DNA of 47,616 nt from Planctomycetota bacterium (GTDB lineage Bacteria; Planctomycetota; Planctomycetia; Pirellulales; Pirellulaceae), in NCBI GenBank assembly GCA_026692845.1, contig JAPLNM010000140.1, forward strand, positions 1-47,616, in the 5' to 3' direction. This document shows positions 38,044-46,296 of this stretch, in pieces (the first letter of the stretch is position 1; every line of letters starts with the position of its first letter). Below the pieces are notes generated by a model, which made no database searches, was not told the origin of the DNA, and was given only the letters and a program-made list of their open reading frames with translations. A program made the translations under genes and the position numbers.

Positions 38044-38126
38044 CTCGTTACACTCTTGACTCTTCGACGAGGCGGTCAACCGGGGCAATCAGCTTGCAGG
38101 TTTGGCTGTTGAAATCGGCGAAAAAT

Positions 38127-38201
38127 CGGGCCGTAGCGCAGCCTGGCTAGCGCGCTACCTTGGGGTGGTAGAGGTCGTGGGTTCGAATCCCGCCGGCCCG
38201 A
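38127..38201 (+). tRNA. tRNA-Pro (anticodon GGG)
   Basis: A 75-nt cloverleaf. The acceptor stem CGGGCCG pairs with CGGCCCG (38194-38200), with discriminator A at 38201. The D-arm is GCGCAGCCTGGCTAGCGCGC. The anticodon stem CTACC/GGTAG closes the loop TTGGGGT, giving GGG. The T-arm is GTGGG-TTCGAAT-CCCGC. CCA is not encoded. The 3' half, from the anticodon loop on, lies inside the 103-bp att repeat, so it has been supplied by the element at 38160-46296 while restoring a complete tRNA. An intrinsic terminator follows. Confidence 0.95.
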
Positions 38202-39939
38202 TTAGCGAAAACCCTTGGGTTCCTTGCGAATCCAAGGGTTTTTTCGTTTCGTGGTCGCTTGTCGCCGCCGTCTTGATATTGTCCCAAAATGCCCCTTTTT
38301 GACCTGTTTGGACGGTGTTAGGTGCAACCATTGGTGCAACCGAAGGTGCAACCAAAAAAGCCTCATCGGTTCCGGTTCGACGCAAGCTTGCCGTCGCGGT
38401 GATCGACTCAAGCGACAAGTTCGGCAACGCATCGACAGCCCCGGCAACGTCCAGCAATCGCGGGTCGGTGTAGGTCTTCATTGTTAAGCGGATGTCGCTA
38501 TGTCTCATCGCTTGTTGCGCTGTCCTGGGTGCAACGCCCCCCTTGCTTAACAGCGTCCCAAACGTATGTCGCAAAGCGTGTACGTCGACAGTCCGGCCCC
38601 GGTCGTCTACCTTGGCAATGCCCGCCGCCGCAAGGTCGCGATCCAAGCAGCGAACCAAGCTTTTCGGAACGTTGAATAATCGCAAAGTCCGGTCGATCGA
38701 TGCCGACTTGAAATTAAGGACCGATCGCGACCGCGTCTTGATTTCGACCCATTGCCGCAACTCGTCTAGCAAGTCGGCCCGCAGCGGCAGGTCGACCGCT
38801 TCGCGGTTCTTGGTGTCTTTCGGTTTCATGCTCAAAACTGCTGTCGGCCCGTCTAAGCGTAGATGGTCAAGGGTCAGCGATGCGATTTCCCCGCGACGCA
38901 AGCCAGTTAAGACCGCGACCTTGTAAACCAAGTAGCGTTCGAACCCTCTTTGGTCTAGTTTCTCTAGGAACGCCGTATTTGCCCCAAGTTTAGCTTTCGC
39001 AATGTCGACGGCTCGTTGGATGGTTTCGAAGTCCAAACGCGCCAGCGACCACGTTTTGCGGCTTGTGGGGGACGTTGGCAGGTCGTCGCCTAACTTTGCG
39101 ACAGTTTCCCGCCCATACTCGGCAAGCGGTCGCCAACGTGCAACGAAAAGCAGTCTTCGAAGTTCGGTTTCGTTAAGCGCCCGCCGTTGTCGTCGCAGGT
39201 CGTCCGCTTCGTTGTATTTGCCGACCCCCGCAAAGGGGTTAATCTCTAACCGCTTGTCGCCTAGCATGCTCGATTTCTTGTTGCGAACCCGTTTTCCGGT
39301 CAACCAGTAACCGAACGATATAAGCGTTCCGGTGTAATCGTTGATGGTCGCAAGCGATCGGTCTTTTTGCAGTTCGCCCGAAAGCCATTTGATAAACTTG
39401 TCCGCGTTCAAGTCGTGCAAGCGTCGAAAGTCGCAAGCGTCGGCGACTTCAAGTAACCGTTTTCTTGTCGTCTTGACCCGGTCCGGGTGTTTGTTTTCTT
39501 GGGTCAGATAATCGCAGTAGTCCGCGATATGCTCCAAGACGGATCGCTTGGCATGCTTACCCGTCTCGGCATCCTGGGAAGTGATAACGCCGCCCCGGAT
39601 TTTCTCCGATGTGCTTTCTAGTTCGGCAAGCTTGCTTTTCGCCGCTTGTTTGTCTCGGCAGCCGGTAGGGGTTTCTCGAACGATGCCGCGCCCATCGCGA
39701 TATTTCGCAAAGTAGGTCTCGGACTTGGTCCTAACCTTACGCGACCCGTCCGCAGCGGTGACAACAACGCCCGATCGCTTTTCGCCGGTCCGGTCGGTCC
39801 AAGTCGCGATCGACTCAGCAACAAAGGCCCGGCCCGGTTGCTCTCGAAGTTCCTTCGATGTTGCGACTCTTTGCTTAGTCGAAACCTTGGCTTGGCTTGG
39901 TAGCGGTCGCGTAGAGGTCTTTTTGTAGATTGTGCCCAT
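38155..39939 (-). CDS. int: Tyrosine integrase of the element, with attachment site inside its 3' end
   Basis: A 594-residue site-specific recombinase. An N-terminal ~120-residue region rich in basic residues precedes a SAM-like core-binding domain (about 130-250, VLEHIADYCDYLTQENKHPD). The catalytic domain has Arg in LTGLRRGEIASL (near 345), HALRH (near 455), the second His/Arg region MRHSDIRLT and the nucleophile in MKTYTDP (near residue 489). All are present. The ribosome site AAAGGAGAATTG precedes the ATG at 39939. After the nucleophile, about 100 residues continue through the att repeat, where the frame reads the tRNA as GPAGFEPTTSTTP, then stops one codon outside it. In the circular form the same frame would continue for 58 other residues (46018-46193). 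The last 35 or so residues are dictated by att DNA. Promoter and control may lie at 40332-40398. Confidence 0.95.
   Translation of the reverse strand: MGTIYKKTSTRPLPSQAKVSTKQRVATSKELREQPGRAFVAESIATWTDRTGEKRSGVVVTAADGSRKVRTKSETYFAKYRDGRGIVRETPTGCRDKQAAKSKLAELESTSEKIRGGVITSQDAETGKHAKRSVLEHIADYCDYLTQENKHPDRVKTTRKRLLEVADACDFRRLHDLNADKFIKWLSGELQKDRSLATINDYTGTLISFGYWLTGKRVRNKKSSMLGDKRLEINPFAGVGKYNEADDLRRQRRALNETELRRLLFVARWRPLAEYGRETVAKLGDDLPTSPTSRKTWSLARLDFETIQRAVDIAKAKLGANTAFLEKLDQRGFERYLVYKVAVLTGLRRGEIASLTLDHLRLDGPTAVLSMKPKDTKNREAVDLPLRADLLDELRQWVEIKTRSRSVLNFKSASIDRTLRLFNVPKSLVRCLDRDLAAAGIAKVDDRGRTVDVHALRHTFGTLLSKGGVAPRTAQQAMRHSDIRLTMKTYTDPRLLDVAGAVDALPNLSLESITATASLRRTGTDEAFLVAPSVAPMVAPNTVQTGQKGAFWDNIKTAATSDHETKKPLDSQGTQGFSLIGPAGFEPTTSTTPR
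38160..38262. repeat. Left attachment repeat (103 bp, perfect direct repeat)
   Basis: Identical over 103 bp to 46194-46296. It covers the tRNA-Pro sequence from TTGGGGT in the anticodon loop to the 3' end, then the terminator hairpin and TTTCGTGGTCGCTTGT. This is the complete-tRNA junction. The sequences diverge on both sides of the repeat. Confidence 0.95.
38208..38244 (+). terminator. Intrinsic terminator after tRNA-Pro (left copy)
   Basis: AACCCTTGG (38210-38218) pairs with CCAAGGGTT (38232-38240) and is followed by a T-run (38239-38244). It begins six bases after the tRNA and lies inside the att repeat. Confidence 0.9.
38321..38353. promoter_or_regulatory. Three GGTGCAACC repeats, 12-bp period (candidate arm-type integrase sites, left)
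   Basis: GGTGCAACC occurs at 38321, 38333 and 38345, all in the same orientation with three-base spacers, 58 bp inside the left att repeat. The sites lie within the int gene and encode APSVAPMVAPN. The same 12-bp-period repeat occurs about 62 bp inside the right att, in another reading frame. Direct repeats of 9-10 bp flanking the core are typical of arm-type sites bound by the N-terminal domain of tyrosine integrases. Confidence 0.6.
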
Positions 39940-40019
39940 TGTGCAATTCTCCTTTGCATCTACTCAAGTTGAAAAAAGACGCGGCAGCCGGTGAGTATTC
40001 CGGTTTTCGGTCCGTCGAC

Positions 40020-40262
40020 CTATCCGCGCCGGTTCAAGTGTAACTGATCGCCCTTGGGACGATAACCTAGAAATCGACCACAGCGCCGGCATTCTGAACG
40101 AATAACCCCCGGTCTTTTCGGGTCTTCGGTTTCGATCGTATCGAAAAGCGCCAGGATATGAAAAAAGCATTCCGCCGACGGATCGCAAGCGACAGTCACC
40201 TTGGTAATCGGTGGCTTGTCGTCCCATGCTTGCCGCAGTCGTTCTTGTAATTCATGGTTCAT
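40020..40262 (-). CDS. Small Cys-containing protein upstream of int
   Basis: An 80-residue protein of unknown function. Cysteines occur at ACDPSAECFF and in ECRRCGRFLGYRP, an arrangement that could bind one zinc ion. The C-terminal CRRCGRFLGYRPKGDQ is similar in style to short zinc-ribbon tails of mobile-element proteins. The ATG at 40262 has AAGGGCGG upstream; an alternative ATG at 40286 has GGGCGGCGG. It is the first gene after the SOS-box-like repeats and is followed by int after 80 bp, so the two probably share a promoter. Size and place would suit an excision or control factor, but nothing in its sequence proves it. Confidence 0.6.
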   Translation of the reverse strand: MNHELQERLRQAWDDKPPITKVTVACDPSAECFFHILALFDTIETEDPKRPGVIRSECRRCGRFLGYRPKGDQLHLNRRG

Positions 40263-40331
40263 AAAACCGCCCTTTATGCTCGGCATCCGCCGCCCTAGGT
40301 GGCAGGATGCCCTTATGTCCCTTATGGGATA

Positions 40332-40398
40332 TAGGAACTAGGGTTCCGCAGTTGCATACCGAAATTTTCCTCAGTACTTAGGAACTAGGGTTCCGCAG
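40332..40398 (-). promoter_or_regulatory. Paired 20-bp direct repeats with LexA/SOS-box-like dyads
   Basis: TAGGAACTAGGGTTCCGCAG occurs twice, at 40332-40351 and 40379-40398, spaced 47 bp apart. Each copy contains the dyad GGAAC-TAGG-GTTCC, and so GAAC-N4-GTTC, the form of LexA box known from Bacillus and actinobacteria. Reading the minus strand, the copy nearer int is followed directly by TATATC, a -10-like sequence, with TGCAAC 17 bp earlier. The repeats sit upstream of the small Cys protein and int. The far copy overlaps the stop of the winged-helix gene. A phage-type or element repressor could also bind here. Confidence 0.5.
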
Positions 40399-40779
40399 CG
40401 ATGCGACGCGGTAAACCGACAACCCCTTATTCAGTCCGCCTTGATAGACGACAACCAGCAACCCTAAATCGGCAAGCTTGCTTATCGCGTTGCGTACCGA
40501 TCGCGATGAAACCCCTAACCGCTTCGCGATGTGCCCTTGGGAAGTCTTCGCGGTTCCGTTGCGGGTGTCTCGATACAATACAAGCCAAGTTCCGATTTCC
40601 GCCCTGGTTAGTCCTTGCAGCGACAAGTCGACGAACTCATTAAGGACCGCAAAGCGATCGCGGGTTGCCTTGTGGCTTGGCTTATGCCCCTTGGCTTTCG
40701 ATGTCTCGTTGCCCTGGGTGGGGTTGCTCATCGGTGGCAAGACCGAAGCGCCCGGCAGTCGTCGACTTAGGGTTGCCAT
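40378..40779 (-). CDS. Winged-helix DNA-binding protein
   Basis: A 133-residue protein. After a basic, Pro/Ser-rich N-terminus of about 45 residues it has a winged-helix domain (LQGLTRAEIGTWLVLYRDTR, then the recognition part SQGHIAKRLGVSSRSVRNAI, then a beta-wing VVVYQGGLNKG). The ATG at 40779 is chosen: GGGGGGG lies upstream, and the gene overlaps the stop of the DnaB-like gene by 13 bp. It may be a replication initiator-type or plasmid-style regulator. The 20-bp repeats overlapping its stop are candidate targets, but this is a guess. It is the last gene of the coupled replication operon. Confidence 0.75.
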   Translation of the reverse strand: MATLSRRLPGASVLPPMSNPTQGNETSKAKGHKPSHKATRDRFAVLNEFVDLSLQGLTRAEIGTWLVLYRDTRNGTAKTSQGHIAKRLGVSSRSVRNAISKLADLGLLVVVYQGGLNKGLSVYRVASLRNPSS

Positions 40780-41717
40780 ATTTGCCCCCCCGCCGACGGT
40801 GTACTGTCCCAAAGGTCTTGCAGCGTCGACAGTAGCGACCCGTCCGCATTGCCTTGGCTTGTCGTCTCGATCGCTTCGAATTGTTGGACCGCCCCGTTAA
40901 ACGAAAGCTTGATTGCCCCGGTTTCACCATACCGCGCCTTGTGTTGTGACAACAAGCGGTCGGTCGAACTCGACGCGGTCAGGATAAACGCATCGTCCGC
41001 GCCATACTCAAGTTCGCCGGACTCCTTGAAGCTTGCAAGGTTCATAAGTTCGCCGCTATAGCTTGACCGGCCCGCGTTGTCTTTTTGCCGACCAACGCTT
41101 GAGACAACCAAGACCGCCGCGCCCGCCTCAGCAAAGGCCCTCAAGTAGCTCATCGCGGCATCGATCGACCCGCGCCGGTCGCCTTGGGTGGCAACGGATG
41201 AAACCGGTATTCGTTGGATATAGTCGATAACGATAATCAAGCGATCGTCGGCCCCGGTCAAGGGTGCGAACTCATCGACAGTTGCCGCGATGTTTTCAAG
41301 TGTGAACGGTGGTCGAACAAAACAAAGTCGCGGGTTAATGCGTTCGATCGCTTCAAGACCGATTGCGACCCGGTCGGCATGCTCGGAACCTAGGTTCCGG
41401 TGTCGAATGTTGGTCAATGGAACGCCGGACAGTCGCGACAATTGCCTATCAAGCAAAACGTCCGGCCCCATTTCAACATTGCAAACGACGGCCCGCAGGT
41501 CCTCATCTAATCGCATCGCATCGACTACAGCTTGGCAAACGAAAGCGGTCTTGCCCGCGCCCGGTGACCCGCCGAACAAAGTGACAAGCTTAGGACCGAT
41601 TTCAAGCTTGCTTAAAGGTCCTTGTTCCGCGACGCGAAAGAACGTCGGCGACTTGCCCGAAAGTAGGTCGGTTTTCCAAGTAGCGAACGCATCCGAAGCG
41701 GTAATGAATTTAGCCAC
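40767..41717 (-). CDS. DnaB-like RecA-fold helicase/ATPase
   Basis: A 316-residue ATPase resembling the C-terminal domain of DnaB helicases and RepA-type proteins. Walker A is FGGSPGAGKT near residues 48-56. Walker B is LIIVIDYIQRI, where DnaB has IDYLQL, and the C-terminal strand reads AIKLSFNGAVQQFE. The DnaB N-terminal domain is absent. The GTG at 41717 is chosen because AAAGGGGGC lies just upstream, and the eight-base overlap with the primase gene is GTGGCTAA. A longer ATG start would run deep into the primase gene. With the primase and DUF669 genes it probably replicates the excised element. A RecA-like loader is the other possibility. Confidence 0.8.
   Translation of the reverse strand: MAKFITASDAFATWKTDLLSGKSPTFFRVAEQGPLSKLEIGPKLVTLFGGSPGAGKTAFVCQAVVDAMRLDEDLRAVVCNVEMGPDVLLDRQLSRLSGVPLTNIRHRNLGSEHADRVAIGLEAIERINPRLCFVRPPFTLENIAATVDEFAPLTGADDRLIIVIDYIQRIPVSSVATQGDRRGSIDAAMSYLRAFAEAGAAVLVVSSVGRQKDNAGRSSYSGELMNLASFKESGELEYGADDAFILTASSSTDRLLSQHKARYGETGAIKLSFNGAVQQFEAIETTSQGNADGSLLSTLQDLWDSTPSAGGQIWQP
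41384..41399. promoter_or_regulatory. Perfect 16-bp palindrome inside the DnaB-like gene
   Basis: CGGAACCTAGGTTCCG is fully self-complementary. It shares the GGAAC-N4-GTTCC pattern with the two sites at 40332-40398, so it also fits GAAC-N4-GTTC. It is inside coding sequence, so it may be coincidental or an internal operator. Confidence 0.4.
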
Positions 41718-42684
41718 AATTGCCCCCTTTGCGGATGCCGCATTCAATTTGCCGCCGAACTTCGCTTGGTGGTAGTCCAGCGTCCAAGGCGGACTCGGAC
41801 AGCAAGGCGAATGCAAGTTCCATCGAACAACCGAACTCGGCAAGGTTCGCAGCGGCAGAAAAAAGCGACCTTGCCCTATCGCCCGCCGCCGACCCTTGGC
41901 GGATAAAATCAAGTGTCGATCGGTTTAACGTGCTAGGCCCGCATCCAACGCGACGCGATGCGATTTCGGCTTGCTTGTGATCGACAGCATCGACCGCCGC
42001 TTGCCAGTCGGCGACCGCTTGTTGGTTCGTCCTGGGTGCCCTGGGTAGCTCAAAGGCTATCGGCTCGGATGCCATGCTACGCAACCGCGACGGCTCAAGG
42101 TGTAGCAGTTCGTCCAGCAAGACCCGCCGCTTGTGTAGTCCGGTCTTGGGGTGTTTGCTATTAGGTGCCCTGAACGCTCGGACGCGATCATAAACGGATA
42201 AATCGATGCCGACTTGGTGCAAGCTTGCGATCGACTCAGCATAGGCCCGACAGTGTCCAGCGAACGACGGCCCCGGCAGCGGCCCCCAAAGCGAAGTCGG
42301 TAAGCCAAGGTGGTAGCCCTTGGACCCGCTAAAAAATACAAGCAGTTCGTCGTCGATCGCGTATCGATTGCCAAGACCACAAGCTAAGCGTCTTGCATCG
42401 ATCGTCGCTTGTTCGAAGTCGTCTTCGCGGTCGATGTCGAACCAAAGCCAACTCGAATAGGTTTCGCCGGTGTAGCCTCTAGTCGTCCGGTTCGTCTCAA
42501 GGTAGCGTCGGAACGCATCGCCAAAACAAAACGCCGATAAATAGCATTCGGACCCCGTATCCGCCTTTTCGTCGCATTCGCAATAGGCAACGAACGCCGC
42601 CGACCAAGTAATTAGTCGGCGATCGTTCCTTGTGTCGCCCGCGATGCGAAACCCATAGGGGAACGCATCGCAAGGACTAGCCAT
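41710..42684 (-). CDS. Archaeo-eukaryotic-type primase (AEP superfamily)
   Basis: A 324-residue primase-like protein. Motif I is WLWFDIDRED (Asp-x-Asp), motif II is FFSGSKGYHLGLP (Ser and His), and motif III is RAFRAPNSKHPKTGLHKRRV. This set is typical of AEP primases of mobile elements. The C-terminal part (PPSEVRRQIECGIRKGG) resembles the primase-helicase tail of the PriCT family. The start is the ATG at 42684 with AAGGGGGCGC upstream; the eight-base overlap with the DUF669 gene is coupled translation. Its product should prime DNA synthesis for the element together with the DnaB-like ATPase encoded next. Polymerase activity cannot be judged from sequence. Confidence 0.8.
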   Translation of the reverse strand: MASPCDAFPYGFRIAGDTRNDRRLITWSAAFVAYCECDEKADTGSECYLSAFCFGDAFRRYLETNRTTRGYTGETYSSWLWFDIDREDDFEQATIDARRLACGLGNRYAIDDELLVFFSGSKGYHLGLPTSLWGPLPGPSFAGHCRAYAESIASLHQVGIDLSVYDRVRAFRAPNSKHPKTGLHKRRVLLDELLHLEPSRLRSMASEPIAFELPRAPRTNQQAVADWQAAVDAVDHKQAEIASRRVGCGPSTLNRSTLDFIRQGSAAGDRARSLFSAAANLAEFGCSMELAFALLSESALDAGLPPSEVRRQIECGIRKGGNCG

Positions 42685-43180
42685 TATCCGCGCCCCCTTC
42701 GCTTGGTTCCTGGGTGGTCGCTTCGGATTGCTCCGAGGGTGCGAACGCGTCCGGCAGCTCCTTGTCGAATCCGATAGCCTCAAAGGACTTGACCCGGTTT
42801 CGTTCGGTCCCGTCGTCGTCGGCCCTCAAAGCAACCTTGACCCGGCAGCGGATGAAACGCGGCAGCGGTTTTTTCAGTTGCTCTAAGGACTGGATACCAA
42901 GCTTGCCAAGGTCGCGTTTTGTTTGTGGCATCGCGGCAGCGGTCAACCAGCAATCCGCCCAAAGTAAACGCCCGGCATGCTCCGAAGGTTCTAAGACCTT
43001 GAAGGTAATTTTGAAACCGGGTGTCCCTGAACGTGACTTGTCCAAAACGCCCTCGACAGCATGGCAAACGTAATTGCCCGGTGGTAATGGCTTGAAGTCG
43101 TCCGCCGCTTGGGAGTTATCCCAAAGGTTTTTAAGGTCGCCGTCGCCGTTGCCGTTAGGTAGAATATCAAGCAGTCCCAT
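42677..43180 (-). CDS. DUF669-type phage protein (probable ssDNA-binding role)
   Basis: A 167-residue protein matching the DUF669 pattern: LPPGNYVCHAVEGVLDKS, then GTPGFKITFKVLEP, then AGRLLWADCWL, and a basic central region. The C-terminus is acidic and Glu-rich (PSEQSEATTQEPSEGGADNG), as in single-strand DNA-binding proteins. DUF669 genes occur in phage replication modules, and the placement before the primase fits. The ATG at 43180 is preceded by GAAGGAAC. It overlaps the preceding gene by 14 bp. The direct ssDNA-binding role is inference. Confidence 0.72.
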   Translation of the reverse strand: MGLLDILPNGNGDGDLKNLWDNSQAADDFKPLPPGNYVCHAVEGVLDKSRSGTPGFKITFKVLEPSEHAGRLLWADCWLTAAAMPQTKRDLGKLGIQSLEQLKKPLPRFIRCRVKVALRADDDGTERNRVKSFEAIGFDKELPDAFAPSEQSEATTQEPSEGGADNG

Positions 43181-43643
43181 TCGTTTGTTCCTTCGTGGTT
43201 GTTGGTGCAAGTGATTGATCTAAGGCCCCATCGGTTGCCGCCGGTGGGGTTTTTTCGTTGGTGATCCATGCGACCGCCTCGGCGAATGTACGCAAGTAGT
43301 CCACAGCGCCGGCCCGGTCAGCAAGACGCAAGACCGCGACATACCCGCGATGCCGACTTGGTCTTACGCTCTGAGTTACGCCCTCGATGGTTGCGAATCC
43401 ATCCGCGATAACCGACTTGGTAACGGTTCCGCGCCAACGTCCGCCGTCAGCGAATTGGTTTCGTAAATCGTCAGCCCCGGTTGCGTCGTCGATGGTCGCC
43501 GATCCGGTATCGGATCGCAGTAGCGACGCAAGCAGCGTCAACCGGCCCAACGTGACGCGGTCGATATTGTTCGACGCGGCAAGCGCCATGCCGACCCGTT
43601 TTCGTCTTTCGCCGTCGGCGATTAAATCCTTGGTTTCGCTCAT
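43167..43643 (-). CDS. Unknown 158-residue element protein
   Basis: No family recognised. It is soluble, with no membrane segment or signal peptide. The N-terminal half is helical (LIADGERRKRVGMALAASNN, then TLGRLTLLASLL); the middle contains ATIDDATGADDLRNQFADGG and a basic patch SVRPSRHRGYVAVL. The C-terminus is Thr/Ala-rich. The ATG at 43643 has AAAGGGGGGC upstream and lies two bases after the AlpA-type gene stop. It may be an anti-repressor or replication accessory, but only the location suggests this. Confidence 0.65.
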   Translation of the reverse strand: MSETKDLIADGERRKRVGMALAASNNIDRVTLGRLTLLASLLRSDTGSATIDDATGADDLRNQFADGGRWRGTVTKSVIADGFATIEGVTQSVRPSRHRGYVAVLRLADRAGAVDYLRTFAEAVAWITNEKTPPAATDGALDQSLAPTTTKEQTNGTA

Positions 43644-43645
43644 CG

Positions 43646-43861
43646 TTACTTGCCCCCCTTTTCGACTTGAGGACAACCGGCAGCGATCCAACTAGAAATC
43701 GCGGTTCCGTCCCATCGGACAGCGCCGCCTAACTTGATCGGACGCGGCATTTTTCCCGCGTCGCTTAAGCGGTAAACATGCCGCTTGCTAACGTCCAGCA
43801 TCGACGCGACCGATTCAACGGTCAGCAATCTACTTGGACCCTTCGTTGCTTGTTCTTGCAT
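43646..43861 (-). CDS. AlpA/excisionase-type HTH protein
   Basis: A 71-residue protein with a MerR/AlpA-like helix-turn-helix: LLTVESVASMLDVSKRHVYR, then LSDAGKMPRPIKLGGAVRWDG, with Trp and Ile in the typical wing. AlpA proteins activate integrase or excision genes in satellites and cryptic prophages, and Xis proteins bend DNA at att. The ATG at 43861 has AAGGAGCAAATACC upstream, the best ribosome site of this region. It starts the coupled operon 43861 to 40378, and its own promoter lies in the repeat-rich 43862-44094 region. Confidence 0.85.
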   Translation of the reverse strand: MQEQATKGPSRLLTVESVASMLDVSKRHVYRLSDAGKMPRPIKLGGAVRWDGTAISSWIAAGCPQVEKGGK

Positions 43862-44094
43862 GGTATTTGCTCCTTGGTGCAAGACATTGAAACCAATGTG
43901 ACCCGATGTCGCGTTGCATGCCAAGACGATAGGACTCAACCGGTTACAAGTAAACAATCACGAAATATTGCGTAACCAAGTTTTTTGTTGTGTCACGGTT
44001 TGCAGGACGCGACCACAAGCGGAAAAAAAGGGTCTACGCTCTCGGCATCATAGAGAAGTTTTTTTCGGTTACGAAATACACGGCTCCTATTTCG
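43862..44094. promoter_or_regulatory. Regulatory or origin-like region with GGTTAC and ACGAAATA repeats
   Basis: The 233 bp between the AlpA-type gene and the HTH gene hold no ORF. GGTTAC occurs at 43942 and 44068, and in inverse orientation at 43972. ACGAAATA occurs at 43960 and 44071, and inverse (TATTTCGT) at 44089. The pair at 44068-44099 forms an imperfect inverted repeat overlapping the HTH gene stop. Two T-runs (43981 and 44058) are present. This suits an operator for AlpA autoregulation or an iteron-type origin. No -10/-35 could be assigned. Confidence 0.45.
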
Positions 44095-44883
44095 TTACTG
44101 TTTTGGCACGTTGCCGCGTACAATAATCGCCCTTATCGATCTTACCTTTTTAGAGACGTAAGATTGAGGCTTTTTAAGTTTCGCAGCGATCGCTTGCGGT
44201 TTCATTCCTTTTTCCATCAATTCATGTATTTTCAGTTCGTCTTGTTCCCAATCCTTAAATCGTCTGCCCGCCTTTCCGCTTGGCTTTTTGGGTTCGGCGA
44301 CCTTGGCTTGTTGTTCCTTCGGTTGGTCTTGTTGGGTCGCGGTAAAATTTGGCTTGCGATCTACATCGATTAAAGCGAACTCGTTTCGCAGGTTTTCGAT
44401 TAGCCCCGGTATAGCCTCGATTTCCTCGATATCGAATCCGTATTTCATCCAAATCGCCCGGCAGTCGTCGACCTTGTCAAGATACGCTTTAATCGTTCGC
44501 TTACCCTTAACGGGTGCCAACCCTTCAAGCAGATAAAGATAAAGCTTTCGGGACTTCACAAGATAAAGGTTCGCGTCGTTGATGTACGGTTGCCGCCGTT
44601 GGGTCGCCCTTGTTCGAAAAATCAGTTCGCCGACTTGCGGTTGTTGCCTAAGGTCGCGATTTAATTTAGCCGACTCATCGAAGTGACCTAACAGCCATCG
44701 GTAAGTTTCAATCAAGCTATCGAAATTCGCCCAACATTCTGTCGCCTTTGGACCGCGTTCGGCAGGAAAACAAGGGTCGGTTAGGCGGTCGTGCATGTGG
44801 CGGTCTTGGACAAGCCAAAGGTCGCCGATTGCGCGATGATACAAGACCGCGACCGGGTCGGACCCGGTGTTTTCCGTTGTCAT
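44095..44883 (-). CDS. Element protein with C-terminal HTH
   Basis: A 262-residue protein. The N-terminal ~165 residues show no recognised domain but are helical and include a strong WLVQDRHMHDRL-type region and KLYLYLLEGLAPVKGK. After a Lys/Pro/Gln linker (about 180-200) the C-terminus has a helix-turn-helix-like stretch, KDWEQDELKIHELMEKGMKP, then AIAAKLKKPQSYVSKKVRSI. This resembles the 'terminase-like HTH' of phage packaging or regulator proteins. The ATG at 44883 has GGGGTTC upstream. It lies 116 bp after the small terminase gene. It might regulate the element or assist packaging; no catalytic residues were seen. Confidence 0.7.
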   Translation of the reverse strand: MTTENTGSDPVAVLYHRAIGDLWLVQDRHMHDRLTDPCFPAERGPKATECWANFDSLIETYRWLLGHFDESAKLNRDLRQQPQVGELIFRTRATQRRQPYINDANLYLVKSRKLYLYLLEGLAPVKGKRTIKAYLDKVDDCRAIWMKYGFDIEEIEAIPGLIENLRNEFALIDVDRKPNFTATQQDQPKEQQAKVAEPKKPSGKAGRRFKDWEQDELKIHELMEKGMKPQAIAAKLKKPQSYVSKKVRSIRAIIVRGNVPKQ

Positions 44884-44999
44884 ATTGTGAACCCCATAGT
44901 GAACAAAGGCCGACCGGCCCGCCCGGTTGCCTATGGGTGCAACCGCGACGGGTGGTCGTTCGGTCGATAGCTAGTCGACCTACCTTTTTTGAAACTAAA

Positions 45000-45413
45000 T
45001 CAACTCATCGAATCGCTACGCGACCGACTTCTTGCAAGCCACTGGTCAAACTCATCCGGCTCGTTGTCGATCGGCTCGATTTTCAGTCGGCAGCGATCCA
45101 TCGGCGACAGTCCAAACAGCCCCCCAAGCTTTCGGACTTGATCGACTACAGCAAGCCAAGACCGGGTTTTTTTGGCGTCGGTCGGATCGCTCATAGCGGC
45201 AGCGGAAAGCGCCTTTGAGTAGGTGACCAACTCGGCAAGGTTCCGCAGTTGCAACGCATCAACGCGCCGCAGGATGCCCGGTTCGATCATGGCAAGCAGT
45301 TCGTCCCAAGCGGCATTCGCCGACCCTAGATCGTTTGGCTTGACCGGTAAACCGTCCGCCTTGGTCCCATCGGTCCCAAGTGATCGATCGCCCCCGCTAT
45401 GATGTCCGCCCAT
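45000..45413 (-). CDS. P27-type terminase small subunit
   Basis: A 137-residue protein that follows the P27 (Terminase_4) pattern: AAWDELLAMIEPGILRRVDA, then LRNLAELVTYSKALSAAA, then SWLAVVDQVRKLGGLFGLSP with MDRCRL, matching the family's 'LGLTPAARARL' end. Small terminases recognise the packaging site on phage DNA. Satellites use such proteins to redirect a helper's large terminase. The ATG at 45413 has AGGATGGGC upstream. No large terminase follows. Similarity was judged by eye, so a profile search is needed for certainty. Confidence 0.75.
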   Translation of the reverse strand: MGGHHSGGDRSLGTDGTKADGLPVKPNDLGSANAAWDELLAMIEPGILRRVDALQLRNLAELVTYSKALSAAAMSDPTDAKKTRSWLAVVDQVRKLGGLFGLSPMDRCRLKIEPIDNEPDEFDQWLARSRSRSDSMS

Positions 45414-45488
45414 ATTCAGCCCATCCTAAAAAAAGTTTTTGGTTGCCTTGCGTCTCACTCAGGGGGGCAAGCGATCGTCGCCCCGTTG

Positions 45489-45833
45489 CTAGACAATCGG
45501 ACCGCCCCCGGTTTCGAACAACGGCCCATCGGGTAGTTCTATTCCGGCAGCCTTGGCGGTCAGCCTTAGTTGATACTCTGGAACCCTTTGAAGGATGCGG
45601 ACAATCCTAGCCCGGTAATCAAGTTCCGCCGCTTCTTGCTTTGCAGCTTGCTTTTCGCGTTTAACGTCGATAGCGTCGGCATCGATTAGGATTTTCGCCG
45701 CCTTTGGTGCAAGCTTCGGGTCCTCTAGGCATCGCACAAGCGCCGCCTTAACCGCTTCGCGATCGACGTTCCATCGTTGTGTAATTGCTCGATTCACTAG
45801 CCCTAAGTCCTTTTCGTTGGCGATCGTAAACAC
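45489..45833 (-). CDS. Unknown 114-residue element protein
   Basis: No family recognised. The start is a GTG at 45833 with GGGGGTCT upstream. The sequence reads VNRAITQRWNVDREAVKAAL, a possible HTH-like or scaffold start, then VRCLEDPKLAPKAAKILIDA and a charged coiled-coil region (DVKREKQAAKQEAAELDYRA). Short helical proteins of this kind sit next to small terminases in phages. It is the first gene of the element read from the right att. There is a 75-bp gap to the terminase gene. Confidence 0.65.
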   Translation of the reverse strand: MFTIANEKDLGLVNRAITQRWNVDREAVKAALVRCLEDPKLAPKAAKILIDADAIDVKREKQAAKQEAAELDYRARIVRILQRVPEYQLRLTAKAAGIELPDGPLFETGGGPIV

Positions 45834-46017
45834 AAGACCCCCGGCCCCAAATTAAAAAAATTTAGGAAAACCGAAACTAACTCATATGAGCGTGCGACTT
45901 CAACCGCCTCAGGTCTTTTTTTAAGGTCGAAAAGGGACCCAAGACCGCCGCCCCCGTCCTTGTCCCTTCATTGTATCCCCTACCCAAAGTTTCGCAAAGT
46001 CGCAGCATGGCGACGGG
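45834..46017. other. Non-coding 184 bp between the last element gene and the integrase tail segment
   Basis: No gene was found. It contains an A/T-rich stretch (45853-45870), a 10-bp palindrome CTCATATGAG near 45880 and purine-rich runs. It could hold the promoter of the terminase unit or a packaging site; neither is recognisable. Confidence 0.4.
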
Positions 46018-46193
46018 TTATTGCAGCAACAAGACCGCAAGCTTGCGTCGCTCATCGTTGGATAATTGCCGTTTCAAAGCGTCGGCAAGTTCGAGCAAAC
46101 AGCGGTCGCAGGTGCAACCGTTGGTGCAACCGTTGCCTTGGGTGATGCGTTTCCCCTTGGTTTTCGTTGGTCCGCTTGGGGTCGTCCGCTTCG
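46018..46193 (-). CDS. int: 58-codon integrase C-terminal extension present only in the excised circle
   Basis: The reading frame through the right att repeat is the same as that of int through the left repeat. It continues here for 58 codons to a TAA at 46018-46020. After excision the att repeats merge, so int would read past TSTTP into TKRTTPSGPTKTKGKR, then a Cys-rich stretch (GCTNGCTCDRC) and an amphipathic helix (LLELADALKRQLSNDERRKL). In the integrated form this segment has no start codon of its own and is separated from int. It is listed as a gene part, not as an independent gene. Confidence 0.6.
46111..46131. promoter_or_regulatory. Two GGTGCAACC repeats, 12-bp period (candidate arm-type integrase sites, right)
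   Basis: GGTGCAACC at 46111 and 46123, same orientation as the left set, 62 bp from the right att repeat. In the frame that continues from int, they read GCTNGCTC, which differs from the left set. Only the DNA sequence is common. A single further copy lies at 44936. Confidence 0.6.
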
Positions 46194-46296
46194 TTGGGGT
46201 GGTAGAGGTCGTGGGTTCGAATCCCGCCGGCCCGATTAGCGAAAACCCTTGGGTTCCTTGCGAATCCAAGGGTTTTTTCGTTTCGTGGTCGCTTGT
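46194..46296. repeat. Right attachment repeat (103 bp, perfect direct repeat)
   Basis: The second copy of the 103-bp att repeat. It carries only the 3' half of a tRNA-Pro and the terminator, and so is not a functional tRNA gene. Upstream (left) sequence is element; downstream (right) sequence is chromosomal. Confidence 0.95.
46242..46278 (+). terminator. Intrinsic terminator, copy in the right att repeat
   Basis: The same hairpin and T-run as the left copy, 8034 bp away. With no intact tRNA in front of it, its role here is uncertain; it could block transcription entering the element. Confidence 0.75.

Follow-up and report, generated by a model that had tools for sequence, protein, structure and literature searches.

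Background

The described systems closest to the element reported here are the phage-inducible chromosomal islands (PICIs) of Gram-positive bacteria and Proteobacteria and the phage-inducible chromosomal minimalist islands (PICMIs) of Vibrionaceae. In an excerpt of PMC6092414, PICIs are recognised by the organisation of their integrase, replication module, and master regulator, by the absence of structural and lytic genes, by a size of approximately 12–15 kb, and by unique attachment (att) sites that are never used by prophages, and their mean size is quoted as 9.5 kb in an excerpt of PMC10803314. The latter excerpt describes PICMIs as occupying the fis site, with a six-gene prototype and a model that requires a DUF3987/DUF5906-type primase without making a small terminase subunit (TerS) mandatory. 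Here, we describe a small element in a 47,616-nucleotide contig (JAPLNM010000140.1 of assembly GCA_026692845.1; this whole stretch is referred to as the window) from a bacterium of the family Pirellulaceae, order Pirellulales, phylum Planctomycetota. Judging from its genes, which are also the basis for excision, packaging, and the helper, this element is likely to be a helper-dependent phage satellite that is PICI-like in its logic. No description of phage satellites of Planctomycetota appeared among the titles and abstract openings listed in searches of open-licence PubMed Central articles.

Integration site and gene content

The insertion extends from position 38160 to position 46296 and is enclosed by two perfect copies of a 103-bp repeat that lie 8,034 bp apart, the left of which (attL) continues beyond the 3′ end of a tRNA-Pro gene (Table 1). 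These repeats and the tRNA-Pro target had been proposed in an earlier sequence-only reading of the window, and both were confirmed by the coordinates, by the tRNA call, and by two empty sites in genomes of the same genus (G763 and G780, loci L315 and L316), where the left flank, a single att copy, and the right flank follow one another without gaps. The right-flank match was 197 bp long with 87% identity in L315, after which it ceased, and 162 bp long with 83% identity in L316, where it reached the contig end. The integrated state with att repeats at both ends, a general feature of phage satellites, is present in this element, and the structural gene set that a prophage would have between its att sites is absent. 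GGTGCAACC repeats occur near both ends and are probably integrase arm sites; secondary repeats of 21–26 bp were also found inside both ends of six relatives (L047, L052, L057, L064, L074, and L079), as would be expected of such sites. A short conserved ORF (open reading frame; ...LADALKRQLSNDERRKLAVLL) at positions 46018–46140, also present in relatives, adjoins attR and overlaps the GGTGCAACC repeats; its profile gave 49 matches at an E value of 0.01 before duplicates were removed, some of which are probably spurious.

All genes of the element point leftward, in the order p11, terS, p9, alpA, p7, ssb, primase, helicase, hth, zn88, and int. The gene list of the sequence-only reading (integrase, AlpA-like regulator, primase, DnaB-like ATPase, DUF669 protein, and P27-type TerS) was borne out by Pfam, PHROG, and profile searches, and the assignments of TerS, AlpA, and the primase held when these searches asked whether the three belong to unrelated families. 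The lack of capsid, portal, tail, and large terminase (TerL) genes in that list was also upheld, because no match to TerL, portal, prohead protease, or other head or tail proteins was found in the element besides TerS in searches with Pfam, PHROG, and prophage profiles.

The primase was matched weakly in Pfam (DNA_primase_S, 0.007) and clearly by a phage primase PHROG (1.6e-14), and its family profile matched a solved archaeal PriS (7.8e-6). The residues of what we take to be the DxD and SGxKGxH primase motifs were invariant in all 22 aligned sequences, including that of the window. The DUF669 match of the neighbouring SSB-like protein fell just under the Pfam cut-off, and the winged helix-turn-helix (HTH) protein, matched by a PHROG for replication initiation proteins, is probably the replication initiator. 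For the window TerS, the Pfam match (0.002) was below the cut-off, and a profile built from 26 prophage TerS alone recovered the protein at 1.5e-7, together with those of the related loci L051 (4.4e-25), L062 (8.8e-19), L074 (4.6e-6), and L043 (2.2e-5). The protein is a homologue of a phage packaging gene product and could redirect the packaging of a helper, although many known satellites lack TerS. When it was compared with solved structures, two de novo TIM-barrel matches were the only ones returned and were judged spurious. The AlpA-like protein was also considered as a small terminase and rejected, its match to phrog_57 (0.03) being ascribed to its HTH. No relatives of p9 were found in the fetched loci, and different proteins occupy the corresponding place in other elements.

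Table 1. Features of the element and its target site, in window coordinates
Feature	Position	Strand	Evidence and remarks
tRNA-Pro(ggg)	38126..38202	+	Integration target, intact on this side
Tyrosine integrase (int)	38155..39939	-	PF00589 3.7e-18; 3′ end enters attL and the tRNA
attL, 103-bp perfect repeat	38160..38262	+	Spans the 3′ part of the tRNA and the terminator
Three GGTGCAACC repeats	38321..38353	+	Repeat family D5; within the 3′ part of int
int-alpA RNA (RF02996)	39962..40030	-	55.9 bits; leader of int
Small Cys-rich protein zn88	40020..40262	-	No Pfam or PHROG match
Two identical 20-bp repeats, 47 bp apart	40332..40398 (40332-40351, 40379-40398)	.	Repeat family D19
Winged-HTH protein (hth)	40378..40779	-	HTH_36 6.7e-6; PHROG replication initiation protein 1e-6
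DnaB-C-type hexameric helicase	40767..41717	-	PF03796 4.1e-19
Archaeo-eukaryotic-type primase (AEP)	41710..42684	-	phrog_16345 1.6e-14
DUF669/SSB-like protein (ssb)	42677..43180	-	DUF669 8.7e-4; phrog_2300 4.4e-11
Conserved protein p7	43167..43643	-	In 27/61 loci with primase, helicase, and hth
AlpA-like HTH regulator/excisionase	43646..43861	-	HTH_17 2.1e-9; Phage_AlpA 1.3e-5
p9	44095..44883	-	HTH-like C-terminus; phrog_323 0.0012
P27-type TerS	45000..45413	-	phrog_83 6.6e-7
p11	45489..45833	-	No relatives in fetched loci
Two GGTGCAACC repeats	46111..46131	+	Repeat family D5; inward of attR
attR, second copy of the 103-bp perfect repeat	46194..46296	+	

Relatives of the element in Planctomycetota

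The search of planctomycete genomes with the primase and the comparison of att-bounded islands, the checks named in the sequence-only reading, yielded 61 loci besides the window and 29 bounded elements. Counting the window's own genome, the primase was present in 8 of 392 genomes in a sample of the phylum and in 41 of 396 genomes of the order; among the 253 order genomes with a completeness of ≥90% and a contamination of ≤5%, 33 carried it. Forty regions were fetched, 39 via the order search and one via the phylum search; weaker places in the order search (G597, G555:C86, G472, G586, and G450) were left out. Scanning public genomes yielded 62 loci, of which 56 had Planctomycetota titles; the remaining six (L164, L185, and L208–L211) are from other phyla. 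Before counting, 21 duplicates and two further entries (L207 and L214) were removed, and L206 was kept despite an earlier duplicate flag since it had no significant DNA match to L069. The 61 loci all hold primase, helicase, and HTH genes, and two of them are phages; ssb was found in 57, alpA in 43, the family integrase in 42, p7 in 27, and zn88 in 17. No pair of loci shared 97% identical DNA over 400 bp, and the closest primases were 96% identical. In tblastn searches, the primase matched nine phage and eight plasmid records, each with <60% identity.

Direct repeats at tRNA genes bounded 29 elements, including that of the window, which spanned 7,206–11,985 bp (median, 9,477 bp). The targets included tRNA genes for Pro, Val, Ala, Ser, His, Met, Leu, Arg, Lys, Glu, Gly, Ile, and Thr. 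Some of the bounding repeats were short (18 bp in L043, 19 in L051, 21 in L075, 22 in L174, and 24 in L046 and L186), the outer repeat of L068 sits at a contig end, and L204 was left out of the bounded set because its repeat was weak (E value, 0.006). Named carriers with repeats were Adhaeretor mobilis HG15A2 and Aporhodopirellula sallentina SM41, and no repeats were found in Botrimarina hoheduenensis or Aeoliella straminimaris. A. sallentina, formerly named Rhodopirellula and placed in Pirellulaceae by NCBI's taxonomy, belongs to the same family as the host of the window element. Two divergent members, L079 and L080, come from a gut Thermoguttaceae genome and have named copies (L201 and L205). 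In L079, a phage-type DNA primase (phrog_1156, 1.6e-47) takes the place of the DnaB-C helicase of the other members, and this primase is probably one of the two DUF5906 members among the non-core ORFs.

Packaging genes in the variable region

Among the 29 bounded elements, a P27-type TerS was encoded in six (the window element, L043, L051, L062, L074, and L186), a second TerS-like type in four (L047, L052, L057, and L152), and a gpA-type TerL in two (L177 and L190). These genes sit in the variable part near the att site distal to int. The exception is L043, whose TerS is flanked by zn88 and a different integrase; this element further encodes a major capsid protein (3.5e-49) and an HNH protein. 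The second TerS type was matched directly in PHROGs in L047 (1.5e-6) and L139 (4.4e-8); the best PHROG for L052 was a sigma factor (9.6e-5), with terminase at 0.022, and L057 and L152 were assigned to this type by a local profile only. The gpA-type large terminases (L177:5167–7245 and L190:4677–6794) occur in small att-bounded elements with no capsid or portal matches. When 141 non-core ORFs of at least 80 amino acids from the 29 elements were scanned, no portal or tail families were found among the matches listed, that is, the best 25 of 45 PHROG families and all 24 Pfam families at an E value of 1e-8. Within the bounded elements, a database of 280 prophage ORFs matched the capsid protein of L043, TerS in both L051 and L186, and a short ORF of L065 and L066 that is uncharacterised, and it missed the gpA-type TerL of L177 and L190.

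Matches to PF05119, for which the window TerS was below the threshold, were found in 65 of the 396 order genomes. At 40 such places obtained as longer stretches, all of which contained TerS, there were 16 with a P27-type TerL, 15 with a portal of the same type, and 13 with both. Many of the stretches without TerL or portal are cut off by the end of a contig or may come from other elements. In three genomes (G529, G432, and G491), the match falls in a locus of the family, which by a rough, uncomputed estimate is far above the share of DNA that these loci represent.

Further arrangements of terminase genes were noted in the same order. In L145 (8580–10025) and L148 (3571–6408), a P27 TerS has a capsid or head-protease gene as its neighbour; alpA is present, and the fetched stretch contains no P27-type TerL. 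These loci are candidate capsid-forming satellites of another kind. An int-alpA RNA, a P27 TerS, and alpA occur together in L137 (2383–7175), with no family-primase match in the fetched stretch. In L139 (9693–10449), a P27 TerS and the second TerS-like type overlap end to start, so that one of the two may have another role.

Candidate replication origin

The two identical repeats directly downstream of hth probably mark the replication origin. When pairs with at least 13 of 16 bases matching were sought at this location, they were found in 48 of 61 loci (the window and both phages included), with a spacing of 46–49 bp in 31 loci and of 22–26 bp, about half as much, in 14 further loci. As a control, 597 random windows of the same loci gave 78 pairs, of which four were spaced by 46–49 bp and six by 22–26 bp; some of the tested loci are close relatives and hence not independent. 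The repeat sequences vary between elements and many are palindromic, and their spacing is kept. The repeats may be iterons bound by the HTH protein.

A pseudoknot in the int-alpA leader RNA

In the window, 22 nt separate the end of the int-alpA RNA from the start codon of int. RF02996 was detected in 14 of 38 chosen genomes, in 13 of them above the cut-off. By coordinates, it lies at the start of int in the window, L047, and L068, whereas in L046, L049, L055, and L059 it stands at the beginning of the block of genes upstream of alpA. Of these last four loci, only L046 is bounded, and the RNA scores below the cut-off in L049 and L055. At 10 of the 15 other RF02996 places, the next ORF on the same strand that is >150 amino acids long or has an integrase or HTH match begins 7–31 nt downstream.

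This leader RNA has a covarying loop–tail pseudoknot, formed between the loop of hairpin 2 and the 3′ tail. Across 23 copies (alignment A4), the mean longest pairing stretch was 5.13 between a loop and its own tail versus 3.83 for crossed combinations, and none of 20,000 permutations was as high. In the window copy, the longest match found by the script lies elsewhere, and the loop–tail pairing ACTCA/TGAGT, also 5 nt, was found by eye. The cmscan structure line for RF02996 contains no loop–tail pairing; since such models cannot hold pseudoknots, Rfam's own annotation may include it. In many copies, a mobility or early gene has its start codon a short distance from the pseudoknot, which may control translation.

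Phages with the same replication module

Two IMG/VR records carry homologous ssb–primase–helicase modules together with alpA and HTH genes. One, G777 (also L215; 44 kb), encodes P27 TerS, TerL, portal, and protease beside the replication module, and its primase is 38% identical to that of the window. The other, G776 (also L181/L214; 55 kb), encodes TerL, portal, major head protein, and tape measure, has a primase with 50% identity to that of the window, and shares an identical stretch of 12 kb with L181, a locus of a Phycisphaerales genome. Of the two phages, only G776 (as L181) belongs to the 31 loci with origin repeats spaced by 46–49 bp. In the primase tree, both fall inside a 65-row clade (support, 98/91) throughout which small elements occur, indicating that the module has moved between phages and small elements, in either direction. 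Relatives with full structural gene sets, which the sequence-only reading had counted as evidence against a satellite, therefore exist, but the other 63 rows of the clade are labelled small or unbounded, with att repeats checked in part of them. A single-sequence primase query of IMG/VR gave no match, and an alignment-based query succeeded.

Proposed life cycle and alternative explanations

In the proposed cycle, a helper phage infects or is induced, and AlpA would then drive excision of the element, with the leader RNA controlling the translation of int during this step. The HTH protein would bind the repeats after its own gene and load the DnaB-C helicase and AEP primase for replication, and TerS would mark the element DNA for the large terminase of the helper, whose particles would then be filled with it. 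A temperate tailed phage that has a P27-type terminase is the probable helper; phages of this kind are present as prophages in the same genus (twice in G604 and once in G703), where TerS, TerL, portal, and protease genes occur together.

Several observations weigh against such a helper-dependent cycle. Excision and packaging are predicted from genes and not seen in reads. The host assembly, which is 96.2% complete, had no match to TerL_ATPase or Phage_portal and hence no resident helper by these two families, other terminase and portal families being outside the search. The sequence-only reading had envisaged a helper phage with a matching P27 TerS; none was found, because among the 37 further TerS of alignment A3 (five from relatives of the element), none exceeds 30% identity to that of the window, and the helper is accordingly a class rather than a named phage. 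Furthermore, 17 of the 29 bounded elements have no recognised packaging gene, and, as the PHROG matches considered were the best 25 of 87 and the best 25 of 45 families, single structural matches could be hidden. G776 and G777 are full phages, so the replication module is not specific to satellites, and among the best 80 of 135 IMG/VR loci they are the only ones that match nearly the whole primase with at least 38% identity; the other 78, seven of which were used as tree rows, were not searched for small packaged elements. The earlier idea of a self-replicating planctomycete satellite with helper packaging is still the best-supported reading, on the basis of gene content, empty sites, and the family, although its helper was not found and two relatives are full phages.

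The elements without recognised packaging genes would also suit a helper-independent integrative element resembling an integrated plasmid, which replicates as a circle and spreads by transformation or generalised transduction, with TerS as an acquired passenger. The replication module and probable origin would fit a plasmid-like circle, and a Hymenobacter plasmid encodes a protein distantly related to the primase (28% identity across 87% of the query). However, a passenger would not explain why unrelated TerS or TerL families occur in 12 of the 29 bounded elements, in one case with a capsid gene, and no relaxase or conjugation family was found among the Pfam matches listed (the best 25 of 54 in one scan and all 24 in the other). 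AlpA and the int-alpA RNA are, moreover, typical of phage-related islands, and we regard this explanation as unlikely. It is quite improbable that the element is a decayed prophage whose structural genes were lost while those for integration, replication, and TerS remained. The homologous module of the full phages G776 and G777, the phage family to which TerS belongs, and the split integrase or primase reading frames in L054, L055, L060, L061, and L206 would agree with decay, but the core genes are open and conserved over dozens of divergent loci, 29 of the elements are bounded at tRNA genes with similar sizes, and the small elements occur across the whole clade and not as single degenerate tips beside phages. 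A further argument against decay is that the origin repeats differ in sequence but keep their spacing.

A defence island on a satellite chassis, in which cargo such as restriction-modification is the main benefit and mobility is rare, would account for the EcoRI-type, N6, and C5 methylases, the MvaI/BcnI endonuclease, and GmrSD (each found in one bounded element, as a single member of the 141 ORFs) and for the matches to PADLOC families among 108 upstream ORFs. The window element itself has no such cargo, its extra genes being terS, p9, and p11; its TerS had no PADLOC match, and p9 and p11 matched no defence family in Pfam or PHROGs. Cargo and a satellite life are also compatible, and as a rival this explanation is very improbable.

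A phage satellite with helper packaging thus remains our preferred reading of the window element. Beyond it, with slightly less than even confidence, we propose a satellite family extending across the Planctomycetota, with a constant AEP-primase chassis and a variable region that swaps P27 TerS, HTH-type TerS, gpA-type TerL, or TerS with capsid, each element tracking a different helper. It is similarly tentative that this chassis comprises origin repeats that differ between elements and, in some members, int-alpA leader RNAs. If true, the range of satellites would include another phylum, in which they have a replication chemistry of their own, and the exchange of packaging genes would be a natural experiment on the choice of helpers by satellites, a question that the named strains carrying family members would make testable. 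The Planctomycetota are a little-studied phylum, and the relatives of the window element suggest an undescribed family of phage parasites in it.

Comparison with known systems

Tycheposons and virion-encapsidated integrative mobile elements (VEIMEs) are marine integrative elements linked to virions and are outside the present comparison. The window element shares with PICIs the integrase, the AlpA-type regulator, the replication module, TerS, the att bounds, and the lack of virion genes. No structural or lytic gene was found in it, and among its bounded relatives one of 29 has a capsid gene and two of 29 have TerL. Integrase, replication module, and regulator are all present in conserved order in the family, with int and alpA flanking the replication module, whereas int and the regulator lie together in PICIs. 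The planctomycete family also differs from the Gram-positive and proteobacterial PICIs in its hosts, in its combination of AEP primase, DnaB-C helicase, and HTH protein, in its use of several tRNA genes, and in the presence of TerL in two members. At 8.0 kb, with bounded relatives of 7.2–12.0 kb, the window element is smaller than the 12–15 kb in the excerpt of PMC6092414, whereas the median of 9.5 kb for the bounded elements is in line with the mean of 9.5 kb in that of PMC10803314. Because of this difference in size, and because gene order alone does not settle the matter, we do not claim membership of the PICIs.

As far as the excerpt of PMC10803314 describes them, PICMIs have in common with the window element a small size, int, alpA, and a primase, and the absence of capsid-remodelling genes, and they differ from the planctomycete family in occupying fis rather than tRNA sites and in having a DUF3987/DUF5906-type rather than an AEP primase. 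Capsid-forming PICIs are partly resembled by L145, L148, and L043, whereas the window element has no capsid gene. The temperate phages G776 and G777 share its replication module, alpA, and HTH genes and differ by their terminase, portal, and head or tail genes and by their sizes of 55 and 44 kb. The probable origin repeats and the covarying pseudoknot in the int-alpA leader RNA are newly seen here. Taken together, these comparisons suggest that the window element represents a new family within an already known kind of element, with a dependence on helpers that is predicted from its genes.

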